DNA of 64,000 nucleotides from Shewanella aestuarii (GTDB lineage: Bacteria; Pseudomonadota; Gammaproteobacteria; Enterobacterales; Shewanellaceae). The DNA is taken from positions 2,476,501-2,540,500 of the forward strand of contig NZ_CP050313.1 of assembly GCF_011765625.1 (NCBI RefSeq), in the 5' to 3' direction. The position numbers and the translations under genes were made by a program. Below the pieces are notes generated by a model. That model saw only the letters and a program-made list of their open reading frames with translations. It was not told where the DNA came from and searched no databases. The first letter of the stretch is position 1; every line of letters begins with the position of its first letter. Below, piece by piece: positions 8,621 through 14,188 of this stretch.

Positions 8621-9076
8621 TTACTGACTACTAACGGCAGCTTGCCAACAAGGTAACCAATTTAGCGCCTCTTGTTCGGGCTCCATCGTCTCGCCCGCAT
8701 CGATTTTAAGCATAGGCGTTAAGCTTTTCGCGCCGAGTTCAGTAAACAACTCGTCAAACTGATTGGCTGCACCGCAAAAATTCTCATAAGAACTATCGCC
8801 TAGTCCAATAATACTGTACTTAAGCTTAGGTAAATAAGGAGCTACTGATTTGATTTGAGAAAACCAAGGTTGAACATCGTCTGGTACATCACCCTGACCT
8901 GTAGTGGAACAAACAATAATCAGAATATCCTCTTCACTAGGCACAAAGCCTAATAAGTCATCCGGTTGATATAAGGTAACCTGATGTTCAAGTTCAGCAA
9001 TTTTGTCAGCTAAGGTCTCAGCAGTAAACTGCGCTCCACCATAAACCGTACCATAAACAATATTAACCTTGGCCAC
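8621..9076 (-). CDS. yqcA: Flavodoxin YqcA
   Basis: Small FMN-binding electron carrier (151 residues). The phosphate-binding loop YGTVYGGAQF is near the N-terminus, followed by STTGQGDVPDD and GLGDSSYENFCGAANQFDELF, which hold the flavin in the flavodoxin fold. It resembles both MioC and YqcA. The immediate neighbours truC and yqcC match the enterobacterial yqcC-truC-yqcA order, so YqcA is the better name. Two bases separate it from the PTS permease downstream. Its redox partner is not known from the sequence. Confidence 0.87.
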   Translation of the reverse strand: MAKVNIVYGTVYGGAQFTAETLADKIAELEHQVTLYQPDDLLGFVPSEEDILIIVCSTTGQGDVPDDVQPWFSQIKSVAPYLPKLKYSIIGLGDSSYENFCGAANQFDELFTELGAKSLTPMLKIDAGETMEPEQEALNWLPCWQAAVSSQ

Positions 9077-9163: not shown

Positions 9164-10027
9164 TTATATCTCTATGCTAGGTTCGCGATCTAAAGATTGC
9201 CAACCTAATAATTCAAATAAATCTAACCACTCTTGCTCAAGTTCAGTTTCAATATGCATCACTTGTTGAGTCACTGGGTGTGTAAATTGCAAACTTTTAG
9301 CGATTAACCATAAACGATTTACGCCAAAGTGCTCCCGAGCAAATTTATTCTGTTTGCCGTCGCCATGGGTAGTATCACCAATAATGGGATGACGTAAATG
9401 TGCCATATGACGTCTAAGTTGATGTTTACGGCCGGTTTTAGGTGAGAGTTTAATTAACCCAAAACGACTCGTCGGATAACGACCTGAACTATATGGTATT
9501 TCACAATTTAGAAGTGGTTGATAAACGGTTACGGCATCTTGCGCCGCTTTGTTTTTCTCGGCAAATTTATCGGCAACATCATCTAATTCAACTTTTAAGG
9601 GATAATCGAGCTCACCCGAATCATGCATATTACCTCGAATGAGCGCTAAATATTTTTTCTGCACAGTATGTTGCTCAAACTGCTCACACAACATACGGGC
9701 ACATTCACTATTTTTGGCAAACAGCAACACGCCAGATGTGGGTCTATCTAGACGATGCACAGGAAACACATGACAACCAACTAGATCTCTAGTTAATTGC
9801 ATGGCAAAAAAACGCTCTTTTCGAACAAGGTAACTGCGATGCACCAATAAACCGGCTGGCTTGTGAATAGCCACCAGATATTCATCTTCAAATAAGATTT
9901 CAAGCGCTGGCGCAACCTCATCTATTTCAACATCATCAACTAACATGGCCGTTGACGAAGTTGACAATGCATCTTGATCGTGAGTTAACTCATATTCTTG
10001 AAGTGACTTATTATTTAAATCGGTCAT
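9164..10027 (-). CDS. truC: tRNA pseudouridine(65) synthase TruC
   Basis: Converts uridine 65 of certain tRNAs to pseudouridine. It belongs to the RluA/TruC family, shown by VHRLDRPTSGVLLFAKN with the catalytic aspartate, by KTGRKHQLRRHMAHL, and by HPIIGDTTHGDGKQN. The 287 residues include an N-terminal extension of about 40 acidic residues that is longer than in E. coli TruC; a later start is possible, but none with a better ribosome site is obvious. Its start is directly adjacent to the end of yqcC, indicating an operon with yqcC upstream and yqcA downstream. Confidence 0.93.
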   Translation of the reverse strand: MTDLNNKSLQEYELTHDQDALSTSSTAMLVDDVEIDEVAPALEILFEDEYLVAIHKPAGLLVHRSYLVRKERFFAMQLTRDLVGCHVFPVHRLDRPTSGVLLFAKNSECARMLCEQFEQHTVQKKYLALIRGNMHDSGELDYPLKVELDDVADKFAEKNKAAQDAVTVYQPLLNCEIPYSSGRYPTSRFGLIKLSPKTGRKHQLRRHMAHLRHPIIGDTTHGDGKQNKFAREHFGVNRLWLIAKSLQFTHPVTQQVMHIETELEQEWLDLFELLGWQSLDREPSIEI

Positions 10028-10360
10028 TTAGACATTTACTCTATGATTTTGGGCAAGCAGTTGATCGAATTGTGTCAATAAAACAATAAGGTCATTGCGT
10101 TCGGGGATTGAAAGCCACACATGCTTTGCCATCGGTGCAATCGCCATGTTTACTGGTAACGGCTGTTTATGCTCTATCAGCAACGTCATTTTGGGTATGA
10201 AAATAAACTGCAGCCATTCTTCAAAGTTCATGCTATCACATGCAAACGGCGCGGTACTGGCCATCGCAACCTCTGAAGGTGGTTGTTGTGACCACAAATG
10301 ATGCTGCTTAAGCAGTTTTTCTAATTTAACTAAAAAGGACTTGCTCAAATCAAAAATCAT
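10028..10360 (-). CDS. yqcC: YqcC family protein
   Basis: Conserved small cytosolic protein of 110 residues whose biochemical role is unknown. Recognised from the characteristic segment MNFEEWLQFIFIPKM, the helix-rich composition and its fixed place directly before truC. No membrane segment or catalytic motif is visible. It is the first gene of the yqcC-truC-yqcA set, and the divergent DUF3549 gene begins about 95 bases away, so the gap between them should hold both promoters. Confidence 0.85.
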   Translation of the reverse strand: MIFDLSKSFLVKLEKLLKQHHLWSQQPPSEVAMASTAPFACDSMNFEEWLQFIFIPKMTLLIEHKQPLPVNMAIAPMAKHVWLSIPERNDLIVLLTQFDQLLAQNHRVNV

Positions 10361-10455: not shown

Positions 10456-11469
10456 ATGACTGAAATCACCACATTAAGCCAGTTTCTTAGCACAGCGAAC
10501 ACCCAATTTCAGGTTTATGATTTAGGACGACGTGTGCAAAATATCGATATGATGGCCTTTCATCAAATTGAATCTTTAGCGACCCCCTATCCTTACCCGA
10601 TTCAGGGGCATGCCCATTTTGCTATTGTATTCTGGCAAACGCAGCAACAGCCCTATATTTGGTTTATAAAACTGCCATTAGATGAGCAAGGTTTGCTTTC
10701 TCCGGCCCCAAGGCAGCAATTTATTAAAATGATCCTAGAAGCACTAGGCCGCGATCCAACTCAGCCGCTAACTGAGTATCAACAAGAACAACTCGCTAAT
10801 CATCCTTTTAGCTTCAAGCCTAGCCAACATAAACTGGCTGTATTTAATGCCTTAGTAAAACTACAACTCGGTCAACAAGCATCCAGCCAGTATGAAACAG
10901 CAGCCCAATATGTCTCTGGACAAATGCCTTTAGATCAATGGCAACATCTTGGACTGCAAGGTTTAGCTGATGTCTGTGTAAGAATGAACACTTTTAATCA
11001 TCTTAATGACTTAATTAATTGTTTACCCAAAGCCCCCATTGAAGTGCAAGCTGCACTATGCGAATGCCTTGAACACTTGATGATTGATGAAGCCCTCGCT
11101 AAAGTCTTGTATGACTTATTTGAGCAAAGTGAAATAGCGCATAAAGGTATTTTTTTAAAAGCATTTGCCTCGCATATCAATTTAAGCCGTCTTGCAATTA
11201 AACGGCTTGATGAGCAAGCATTATTAGACGACAACCTTTTAATCACTATTGCAGCCCGTAATTGGTTAGCATTAAAGGATGATGTAACTCGCAAAATTTA
11301 TTTAGAAGCCCTAGCCAAGCAACCCCAGGGGTTCTTTAATCAAATTTTTGCTGATATGGTGGCCATTCCAAGTTTACGAAATTTGCTGCTGGCAGAATTA
11401 CGAAACCCTGAGCGCAGTGCGCAATTATCTCTCGCCATTGGCGGTTTATTTAAGGCTGCAAACATATGA
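10456..11469 (+). CDS. DUF3549 family protein
   Basis: Conserved protein of 337 residues, known from Shewanella and relatives, without assigned function. It opens with TLSQFLSTANTQFQVYDLGRRVQ, typical of the DUF3549 family, and continues with alpha-helical repeat-like sequence to the end. No signal peptide or membrane span is visible. I use the ATG at 10456; an in-frame TTG six bases upstream is also possible. Its stop overlaps the start of the next gene by four bases, so both are translated as a pair. Confidence 0.85.
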   Translation: MTEITTLSQFLSTANTQFQVYDLGRRVQNIDMMAFHQIESLATPYPYPIQGHAHFAIVFWQTQQQPYIWFIKLPLDEQGLLSPAPRQQFIKMILEALGRDPTQPLTEYQQEQLANHPFSFKPSQHKLAVFNALVKLQLGQQASSQYETAAQYVSGQMPLDQWQHLGLQGLADVCVRMNTFNHLNDLINCLPKAPIEVQAALCECLEHLMIDEALAKVLYDLFEQSEIAHKGIFLKAFASHINLSRLAIKRLDEQALLDDNLLITIAARNWLALKDDVTRKIYLEALAKQPQGFFNQIFADMVAIPSLRNLLLAELRNPERSAQLSLAIGGLFKAANI

Positions 11470-11852
11470 TGTCAGATTTTTTATTAATTGTTGCTTTAGT
11501 GGTCGTTGCAGCTTTCTTTTGGCAACTACGCCAAATGGCTGAACTGAGCCGTATGGTGGCGGAACAAGCCTGCAACAAGCAAAAAGTACAATTATTAGCT
11601 GTCGCCATGGAATCAGCTAGGCCTAGTATTGGCGGCCATACAGGTTTATGCTGGCGAGCAAAATTCATGTTTGAATTTAGCACTGATGGCATGAATCAAT
11701 ACAAAGCTCATATTAATATGCATGGCAAAAGGGTAAGTAAAATCGACTGGCCAATATTTCCTGAACCAGAGTGGACTGATGCCCCAACAGCAAGAGGAAA
11801 ATTCGGTGGTTGTGGTTCCAGCCGCAGTTGCAACTCAGGCAAATGCCACTAA
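11466..11852 (+). CDS. DUF3301 family membrane-anchored protein
   Basis: A 128-residue protein of unknown function. A single N-terminal membrane anchor (about 4-20: FLLIVALVVVAAFFW) is followed by a cytosolic domain containing RPSIGGHTGLCWRAKFMFEFSTDG, typical of DUF3301. The C-terminus is rich in Gly, Ser and Cys (GGCGSSRSCNSGKCH), which could bind metal, though that is only a guess. Its start overlaps the stop of the DUF3549 gene (ATGA), indicating translational coupling. Confidence 0.82.
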   Translation: MMSDFLLIVALVVVAAFFWQLRQMAELSRMVAEQACNKQKVQLLAVAMESARPSIGGHTGLCWRAKFMFEFSTDGMNQYKAHINMHGKRVSKIDWPIFPEPEWTDAPTARGKFGGCGSSRSCNSGKCH

Positions 11853-11892
11853 ACGATTAAATATAAATCATCACGAAAATCAAAAAGCAATA

Positions 11893-11927
11893 CAAAAAGA
11901 AAGGCCGCGACATAATGTCGCGGCCTT
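11893..11927 (-). terminator. Terminator of CsrB-like copy 1
   Basis: A 12-bp perfect stem (AAGGCCGCGACA and its complement) with a 3-base loop is followed on the minus strand by TCTTTTTG. It lies 48 bases after the DUF3301 stop and may also stop plus-strand transcription, although the T tract is much better on the minus strand. Confidence 0.88.
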
Positions 11928-12358
11928 CTGTTCTCTTGTTAAGCTTTCCAGCTATTTTTTGTGCTCCCTGCACCATCCATGCGTAAATTTGCTCCTGCAA
12001 CTGTCCGTGCACTATCCTTGATAATCCTTGTACTAGCGTACATTCCATCTTACTCGATTATCCGTTGACCGAGTCTGCTCTATCCTAAGCGTGTCCTGAC
12101 ATCATCCATAAGTATCAATTAAATCCTTTTACGGTAAACAAGGCATCCTGCTTACTACCTGGGTACAAATCATTTATACCTATCCAACCTTAATCCGTAA
12201 TGTTGGCTATTTTACTTAACCTTTTTTGCTTGCCGTGAGTGTTTTTCCTAAACAATAGCAAGTTGTCATCCTTTACATTCCATTCCAACCTAGTATGGAA
12301 TCCAATTAAAAATAGACTTATACACTCCTATTGGCGCTCTCCTTAGCTAAACAAATGT
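11893..12358 (-). ncRNA. CsrB-type regulatory sRNA, copy 1 (CsrA sponge)
   Basis: Predicted decoy RNA that binds many CsrA dimers and relieves CsrA repression. No protein gene fits here, but the minus strand carries about 23 GGA triplets in 400 bases, mostly AGGAT, AGGA or TGGAT in short hairpin-like contexts, which is the CsrB/CsrC hallmark. The 3' end is set by a strong minus-strand terminator (11901-11927 plus T tract). The start is estimated from the conserved ATGATTACAT at 12361-12370. A UvrY-like palindrome lies about 160 bases upstream of that. The 3' part shares GCATGGATGG and GCAGGGAGCAC with copy 2. Exact ends are inference. Confidence 0.82.
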
Positions 12359-12516
12359 TAATGTAATCATCTAAAACAAGCCACCCCTTCCAACAAAGAT
12401 GCAACAAAACCACAACACAACCATTTAAACAAACTCAGCAATAACCGTTACTTTTCAGAAGCTTAAATACTGTCGAAAGATAATTACCATTTACAAAACT
12501 GAATTAACTTACACAT

Positions 12517-12538
12517 CTTGTGAGATATATCTCACAAG
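12517..12538. promoter_or_regulatory. UvrY/GacA-like box upstream of CsrB-like copy 1
   Basis: A perfect 22-bp palindrome whose core reads TGTGAGATATATCTCACA. This matches the TGTAAG-N6-CTTACA type of site bound by UvrY/GacA/VarA response regulators. Its centre is about 162 bases upstream of the conserved ATGATTACAT at the presumed start of copy 1, a distance similar to that known for csrB of enteric bacteria. Binding is inferred, not shown. Confidence 0.75.
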
Positions 12539-12612
12539 CACTATAGCAAAGTGCTATCGGTAAGGTTTACTAGAGTTAATTTCACCTACAGCGCAATACC
12601 TAAGTTGTAGAT

Positions 12613-12642
12613 GTAAAAAGGCACAACCTTAAAGGTTGTGCC
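12613..12642 (-). terminator. Terminator of CsrB-like copy 2
   Basis: A 9-bp perfect stem (GGCACAACC / GGTTGTGCC) with a TTAAA loop is followed on the minus strand by a run of five T, a classical intrinsic terminator separating the two sRNA genes. Confidence 0.88.
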
Positions 12643-13006
12643 CATTTAACACTTATTGTCAGCAATCCTGCTAAATTGGTGCTCCCTGCTCCATCCATGC
12701 GACATGCTATCCTAGCGGTTCCATTTCCATATTTCTCAACATTCCTTTACAGACGTAGGTTGAGTTCAGTCCCTTGTTCAGTCATCCTTTACTGAAAATT
12801 CAAATCCGTTGAATTATCCTTAAGCTTCCTGCTTTCCTATTCCTTTATTCCTTGTGTCAGCTTACGCTTTCACTCTTCCTTGTTTCGGCTATCCATTTGC
12901 CGAGCTTATGCCCTCAATCCTTAGGCGTGTCCTTAAATCATCCTTGAAATTCAGTGTTACGATGCAATGTTTTATCTTCCTGATTAAACATGCTGTATCG
13001 GTGACT
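12613..13006 (-). ncRNA. CsrB-type regulatory sRNA, copy 2 (CsrA sponge)
   Basis: Second predicted CsrA-sequestering RNA, in tandem with copy 1 and on the same strand. About 22 GGA triplets occur on the minus strand between 12660 and 12985, again mainly AGGA or AGGAT, with no open reading frame of note. It ends at a minus-strand terminator (stem 12620-12628/12634-12642, then TTTTT) and starts near the shared ATGATTACAT (13009-13018). A UvrY-like box at 13182-13199 lies about 177 bases further upstream. Primary sequence is diverged from copy 1 except in the 3' block, so the duplication is not recent. Confidence 0.84.
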
Positions 13007-13181
13007 TGATGTAATCATTGTATATCTAAAAAGTTAACTAAAAACACACAAACATCTATTTACAAAAGAAACACAAAAAAAACACCAACCAGTTTTCTTA
13101 ATTAAGTTATTGAATAATATAAATTATTGACAACACCACTGTCATTAGTACACATAATTACTCAATAAAAACCTACAGCAC

Positions 13182-13199
13182 TGTAAGATATATCTCACA
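13182..13199. promoter_or_regulatory. UvrY/GacA-like box upstream of CsrB-like copy 2
   Basis: TGTAAGATATATCTCACA, an 18-bp near-perfect palindrome sharing the GATATATC core with the box of copy 1. It is about 177 bases upstream of the presumed start of copy 2 and just beyond the end of the neighbouring DUF962 gene (13219). Presumed binding site of the BarA/UvrY (GacS/GacA) response regulator. Confidence 0.74.
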
Positions 13200-13218
13200 A
13201 AGCTTTGGGGGAAAGGGA

Positions 13219-13542
13219 CTATTTACGATTATCTTCAGATTTTAAAAACATCTTTTTTAACATTTGAGCATACATAACCCAATCTCCCATAAGGCTGTAT
13301 ATGGGATATCTAAACGTTGCTGGACGATTTTTTTCAAACATAAAGTGTCCAAGCCAAGCAAACCCATAACCAATCACAGGTAACCATAATAACTGCCACC
13401 ATTGTTGGTTAATCAGAGTGTTTATCAACACAACCAAGACAATTGTGCTACCAACATAATGTAAGCGCCGACAAACCGGGTCTTGATGTTGCGATAAATA
13501 AAAAGGGTAAAATGCTTTAAAACTGTCAAACTTTTTGTTCAT
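13219..13542 (-). CDS. Mpo1-like (DUF962) membrane protein
   Basis: Small integral membrane protein of 107 residues resembling the DUF962/Mpo1 family, whose yeast member oxidises 2-hydroxy fatty acids. Visible features are FKAFYPFYLSQHQDPVCRRLHYVGS, two hydrophobic spans (about 30-47 and 52-70) and WLGHFMFEKNRPATFRYPIYSLMGDW with conserved histidines. I prefer the ATG at 13542 because a G-rich ribosome site lies just upstream and the family starts here. An upstream in-frame start at 13590 would overlap the GNAT gene. The substrate in bacteria is unknown. Confidence 0.82.
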   Translation of the reverse strand: MNKKFDSFKAFYPFYLSQHQDPVCRRLHYVGSTIVLVVLINTLINQQWWQLLWLPVIGYGFAWLGHFMFEKNRPATFRYPIYSLMGDWVMYAQMLKKMFLKSEDNRK

Positions 13543-13561
13543 AACCCCCCCATCAATGGTT

Positions 13562-14188
13562 TTATTTGGCATAGAATAAAATCTCACCACTCACTTGACC
13601 AATAGTCACTTCGGCAATACTTTGAAACCCTTGTTGACTAAACACTTTATGATGCTGAGGGTGGTTAACAAATACACCAATACCATCAAGGTTTGGTTGT
13701 TCATCGCACCAACTCAATACCGCTTGAATTAGCTTTGCACCATTTCCTTTTCTCTGCTCACTAGGCGATAAAGCAATAAACTGTAAAATACCGCACTTTT
13801 CTGATGGTAAATGACTTAATAGACAAGACTCCTTTTGCATTAAACCTTGGGTAGATTTCCAACCAGTTCCTAGTACCATTTTTAAACGCCAATGCCAGTA
13901 TCTCGACTCTCCAATTGGAATCTGCGATGTCACAACACACGCCACACCAATGAGTCGCTCACCGTCAAACCAGCCAATTAGAGGCTGTTCTTGCTGCCAT
14001 AATTCATTTAATTCTTCTCGTATTGCGGCTCTAAGTTTCTGTTCATACAGACTTTTGTCTTCACCACCGAAAACATCAATAAAAAAAGGATCATCATGGT
14101 AAGCATTGTAAATAATTGAACTAGCGAGACGTAAATCTTCCGCAGTCAGATACACTGCGCGAAACTGCTCAAAGGTTGGGGTATCCAT
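13562..14188 (-). CDS. GNAT family N-acetyltransferase
   Basis: Cytosolic acetyltransferase of 208 residues, acceptor unknown. The acetyl-CoA-binding loop appears as LSPSEQRKGNGAKLIQAVLSW (motif A), preceded by a strand with ILQFIAL and followed by GIGVFVNHPQHHKVFSQQGF, the usual motif B. It lies immediately upstream of the DUF962 gene on the same strand, with only 19 bases between stop and the chosen start, so the two are probably transcribed together. Confidence 0.85.
   Translation of the reverse strand: MDTPTFEQFRAVYLTAEDLRLASSIIYNAYHDDPFFIDVFGGEDKSLYEQKLRAAIREELNELWQQEQPLIGWFDGERLIGVACVVTSQIPIGESRYWHWRLKMVLGTGWKSTQGLMQKESCLLSHLPSEKCGILQFIALSPSEQRKGNGAKLIQAVLSWCDEQPNLDGIGVFVNHPQHHKVFSQQGFQSIAEVTIGQVSGEILFYAK

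Follow-up and report, generated by a model that had tools for sequence, protein, structure and literature searches.

A tandem pair of diverged csrB genes in Shewanella aestuarii

The locus described here almost certainly consists of two tandem csrB genes of the Shewanella csrB1/csrB2 type, coding for RNAs predicted to sequester CsrA and to be switched on by UvrY; their transcription, control by UvrY and binding of CsrA are extrapolated from relatives. We describe the sequence features of the locus, its family match, promoter boxes, synteny, partner genes and conservation. The system itself is already known: csrB1 and csrB2 of Shewanella have been published, and the window (the whole 64,000-nucleotide stretch of DNA that was analysed) contributes a further member of the genus. 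Added here are the spread of csrB over 60 genomes, the counts of tandem arrangements and the separate positional lineages of the two copies in a group of 13 species. The finding locates the Csr switch in this Shewanella genome. A pair retained side by side in many species lends itself naturally to the question of why a bacterium should keep two or more CsrA sponges.

Two GGA-rich stretches in a long intergenic gap

The features of the locus and of its conserved neighbourhood are as follows.

8621..9076, minus strand: yqcA-type flavodoxin gene, conserved neighbour (Pfam PF00258)
9164..10027, minus strand: truC, conserved neighbour (NCBIfam NF008321, over the cut-off)
10028..10360, minus strand: yqcC (DUF446), conserved neighbour (Pfam PF04287)
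11893..12350, minus strand: csrB copy A (downstream gene), about 458 nt; Rfam CsrB match and GGA excess, start predicted from the promoter alignment
11900..11928, minus strand: intrinsic terminator of copy A; 13-pair stem (8 G-C), then a T-rich tail
12356..12365, minus strand: possible -10 region of copy A, weakly conserved; proposed from the 7-species alignment
12519..12536, no strand assigned: UvrY-type inverted repeat of copy A, TGTGAGATATATCTCACA; pattern search and promoter alignment
12613..13010, minus strand: csrB copy B (upstream gene), about 398 nt; Rfam CsrB match and GGA excess, start predicted from the promoter alignment
12619..12643, minus strand: intrinsic terminator of copy B; 11-pair stem (6 G-C), then a T-rich tail
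13017..13022, minus strand: likely -10 element of copy B, TACAAT, present in 7/7 aligned species; proposed from the alignment
13182..13199, no strand assigned: UvrY-type inverted repeat of copy B, TGTGAGATATATCTTACA (minus strand), followed by TGTAGG; pattern search and alignment

The stop codon of the DUF3301 gene (11852) and that of the Mpo1-like gene (13219) are separated by a 1366-base gap, in agreement with the gene desert of about 1.3 kb noted in the preliminary description. The only frame of at least 80 aa found in the gap is the tail of one 80-aa plus-strand frame (11779-12021), which reaches into copy A; no frame of this length lies inside either RNA. The gap had been said to hold two minus-strand stretches with more than 20 GGA triplets each, and the counts bear this out: copy A (11893-12360, 468 nt, minus strand) has 23 and copy B (12613-13030, 418 nt, minus strand) has 22, while dinucleotide shuffles give means of 10.4 and 11.7 and reach the observed number in 0/500 cases for either copy. 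The plus strand of the same stretches holds one GGA (copy A) and none (copy B). For 11893-13006 as a whole the minus strand has 46 triplets and the plus strand one (shuffle mean 22.9, reached in 0/500). The AGGA count was reached in 1/500 shuffles for copy A and 0/500 for copy B, the A[AG]GGA count in 5/500 and 0/500, and the AGGAT count in 0/500 for both. When the densest 400-nt GGA stretches were sought on both strands of the 64-kb window, all of the top 30 listed overlapped this locus on the minus strand. The locus edge first proposed, 13006, is close to position 13010, near which copy B probably starts.

GGA richness of this kind could be a by-product of base composition or mark a coding gene that escaped detection. 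Composition does explain about half of it, as shuffles alone yield about 10-12 GGA per copy, but none of them attains the real counts, and the plus-strand frame tail entering copy A is all the coding potential of this size that the gap offers. The family search presented below speaks against this explanation as well.

Each stretch was also claimed to end in a strong intrinsic terminator on the minus strand, and terminator-like hairpins are indeed located at 11928-11900 and 12643-12619. Altogether, four terminator-like sites were found on the two strands of 11300-13600, compared to 1.6 expected from shuffles. The two copies have a common 3' block, CGCATGGATGG.GCAGGGAGCAC, as described previously. 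The accompanying statement that they share little else has to be corrected: the UvrY-type inverted repeat is also common to them, and in the multiple alignment they are 49% identical over the 3' 455 nt. Copy A (11893-12345) is predicted to fold better than its shuffles (z -3.36, 0/100 as good), and copy B (12613-13008) mildly better (z -2.12, 3/100 as good).

Match to the CsrB family

A permissive Rfam scan of 11850-13250 matched both copies to the CsrB model (RF00018) from end to end (model positions 1-356), with 60.4 bits and E 2.4e-15 for copy A and 41.8 bits and E 9.7e-10 for copy B. The covariance model search suggested in the preliminary description has thus returned full-length matches to both stretches, each under the Rfam gathering score of 71 bits; with that score applied, the scan of the window reports four tRNAs only and no CsrB. 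A search of the whole genome (E <=0.001) found CsrB in these two places and no other.

All 60 sampled genomes of the genus, this one included, have a csrB match at E <=0.001, and in 59 of them every match stays below the gathering score, which is exceeded in a single genome. The shortfall therefore belongs to the genus, and the cut-off, being a matter of annotation and not a biological feature, was not taken as excluding membership in the family. Rfam annotation at this cut-off would miss csrB in those 59 genomes. Full-length matches for both copies and the presence of csrB throughout the sample contradict a compositional or coding by-product, to which we attach a negligible probability.

The other 16 matches of the permissive scan (among them RefA9, STnc380, leaders and microRNAs) are below their cut-offs with E >=0.029 and were set aside as chance; many of them sit on terminator hairpins. 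The CsrC model gave six matches, all sub-threshold (the best with 29.1 bits vs the cut-off of 61), which were not taken as evidence for a third sponge RNA. One of them covers the full model at 21.8 bits; the model also gave matches in E. coli and four other control genomes. Nothing came out of a distant search of plasmid records.

Promoter regions and UvrY-type boxes

The consensus of the UvrY-binding repeat is TGTAAGNNNNNNCTTACA; in E. coli the repeat of csrB is located at -183/-182 and is followed, 5 bp further, by a partly conserved TGTAGGAGA (PMC4682653). Scanning of the 4.47-Mb genome with the pattern TGTRAGN6CTYACA has found matches in three places: 12519-12536, 13182-13199 and one on contig 2, while the control, the same pattern read backwards, matched once per strand. 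The third box (contig 2, 30422-30439) falls within a long, repetitive and cysteine-rich open frame and is probably a chance match.

The promoter regions of the window were aligned with those of six other loci (L032, L033, L034, L036, L037, L038), seven of the 11 loci that have boxes before both copies. TGTAGG follows the copy B box in 7/7 of these Shewanella loci. The -10-like element of copy A is weaker, reading TTAATATTAA in three relatives and matching less well in the window and the remaining species. The distance from the box centre to the predicted start is about 180 bp for copy B (start about 13010) and about 177 bp for copy A (start about 12350). A sigma-70 scan gave no site at either of these starts, with two sites found vs 6.7 from shuffles. 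One of the two, at 13145-13116, could serve copy B as an additional promoter, some 100 bases upstream of the predicted start, and would yield a longer transcript; this stretch is not conserved across the 7 aligned species.

Box-like sequences within 500 bases before a copy were located for both copies in 11 of the 26 two-copy loci compared below, for one copy in 14 and for neither in one; two of the 14 one-box loci (L045 and L087) are cut at the locus edge, the fetched stretch beginning at the upstream copy. Eight of these loci (L048, L049, L050, L055, L058, L059, L064, L065) have a box before the downstream copy and none before the upstream one, which possibly indicates divided control of the pair. 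In the first seven of these the upstream copy has only 14-17 GGA per 400 nt.

Genomic neighbourhood and the expected regulatory circuit

The order yqcA-truC-yqcC is that found beside csrB in E. coli K-12. TruC of the window has its nearest relatives, among the named contigs, in S. subflava and S. aestuarii (84-85%), in keeping with a place in Shewanella. The genome codes for the partners expected of a Csr system, all on the contig of the csrB pair: one CsrA match (92.5 bits vs the cut-off of 27), UvrY (best match 409.4 vs 280) and BarA (1326.9 vs 890). Twin CsrB-type RNAs, as first proposed from the letters of the DNA, are supported by the full-length Rfam matches, by the E. coli type of csrB neighbourhood and by UvrY-type boxes at the E. 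coli spacing; the presence of CsrA, UvrY and BarA and the published Shewanella pair back the identification as well.

By analogy with these systems, BarA would activate UvrY, and phosphorylated UvrY would bind the inverted repeat that precedes each csrB gene by about 180 bp and switch on the gene's own promoter. Each gene would then give an RNA of about 400-460 nt ending at its own intrinsic terminator, and the many GGA sites of each RNA would bind CsrA dimers, keeping CsrA off its target mRNAs.

Comparison with known csrB loci

E. coli CsrB (RF00018) and the window share the full-length model match, the yqcA-truC-yqcC neighbours and the box about 180 bp upstream. The E. coli locus has one csrB, whereas the window has two in tandem, with lower family scores. 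CsrC of E. coli is located away from the csrB locus. In contrast to E. coli, genes of the DUF3549 and DUF3301 families lie between yqcC and the csrB genes of the window, and the other flank of csrB is occupied by the Mpo1-like gene instead of syd.

A close parallel is S. oneidensis, where csrB1 and csrB2, first predicted in an earlier study cited in PMC3171408, were detected by northern blot and reported to drop more than 100-fold when barA or uvrY is mutated (PMC3171408). According to the same source, csrB2 is the more abundant RNA and csrB1 is growth-phase dependent. As in the window, the two csrB genes of strain MR-1 (420 and 421 bp) are described as located in one locus, each with a box of the TGTAAGN6CTTACA type; a transposase gene parts csrB1 from csrB2 in MR-1, while no gene lies between the copies in the window (PMC3171408, PMC11045786). 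The two genes are reported to be adjacent in other Shewanella, e.g., S. putrefaciens CN-32 (PMC3171408). In an S. oneidensis csrB1/csrB2 double deletion, siderophore synthesis was reportedly restored in trans by either RNA, CsrB2 being the more effective of the two (PMC11045786). Our literature search for csrB tandem duplication in Shewanella returned no report on it; the known csrB1/csrB2 pair was found by other searches.

Duplication of csrB has been described in Vibrio (PMC6262261). Like the window, Vibrionaceae have several csrB paralogues, mostly out-paralogs according to this source, and one case of neighbouring copies is given, in Aliivibrio salmonicida; most Vibrionaceae copies are described as relocated after duplication, whereas both copies of the window are still side by side (PMC6262261). 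Three Csr sRNAs have been reported in Pseudoalteromonas (PMC11882849).

Spread and age of the pair

Among the 60 sampled genomes of the genus, 33 carry two or, in one case, three csrB matches in tandem, defined as same-strand matches separated by no more than 1.5 kb (one partial 52-base match, in G014, was left out of this tally). In six others the two matches are more widely spaced or differ in contig or strand. The genome with three is G043 (C1:1276763-1278581), all of them being on the same strand. A single full match was found in 21 genomes, which is an upper bound, since the search filters were stricter. Loci were fetched for six of the 21 (L003, L008, L011, L016, L022, L023), and each of the six has another GGA-rich stretch close by (14 or more GGA per 400 nt).

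Such figures might suggest that one copy works and the other is a decaying paralogue: a third or so of the genomes (21/60) show one full match only, copy B has the lower family score (41.8 vs 60.4 bits), and the upstream copy of some relatives is poor in GGA and lacks a box-like sequence. However, copy B keeps its box, the TACAAT element (7/7 aligned species), the terminator, 22 GGA and the 3' block. It is also the better conserved one in comparison with the three nearest relatives, the upstream copy being 74-76% identical and the downstream one 67-68%. The second GGA-rich stretch in all six fetched single-match loci and the restoration of siderophore synthesis by either copy in S. oneidensis (PMC11045786) argue against decay too, which we consider very improbable.

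A tree was built from 26 loci, i.e., the window and 25 of the 57 named loci L032-L088 (Shewanella, Parashewanella). The other 32 were dropped: in 20 the fetched stretch held one GGA-rich peak or none, in 11 there were at least two peaks and no 3' motif in both, and L080 had three unassignable peaks. The 23 loci of other genera (L089-L111) were left out of the tree. Copies in the same position in different species have a mean identity of 54.6% (650 pairs), those in different positions 46.8% (650 pairs); the two copies of one genome are 41-53% identical, the window with its 49% included. Three relatives have upstream copies that cluster with that of the window (99/95) and downstream copies that cluster with its downstream copy (98/94). 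At a larger scale, 13 species contribute one supported set of 13 upstream copies (99/93) and another of 13 downstream copies (97/91). Position changes four times on the tree vs 17.7 times with shuffled labels (0/500 as low). Several points speak against a single clean split: a second group of eight upstream copies stands apart, long branches meet, and all upstream copies were placed on one side in 0/200 bootstrap trees. In addition, L052, alone among the 26 loci, has its own two copies placed together (91/90), weakly and on long branches.

By alignment and tree, the copies of the window are old, diverged paralogues. It follows from the separate positional sets that the csrB duplication predates the group of 13 species, provided that the true root falls outside both sets. 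In the preliminary description the two adjacent copies were taken to suggest dosage or differently timed control of CsrA, and either may apply; besides the age and divergence of the copies, the differences in level and growth-phase pattern between csrB1 and csrB2 of S. oneidensis (PMC3171408) bear on this point. We give about an even chance to a further proposal, namely that selection has preserved the adjacent csrB genes in much of Shewanella as an old pair of distinct genes, and not as spare dosage copies, while their promoters drifted in UvrY-box content and hence in timing or strength.

Among the 23 fetched loci of other genera, 12 (L089, L092, L100, L101, L103, L104, L105, L106, L108, L109, L110, L111) have one GGA-rich stretch before truC, with 22-34 GGA per 400 nt and lacking the exact Shewanella 3' motif.
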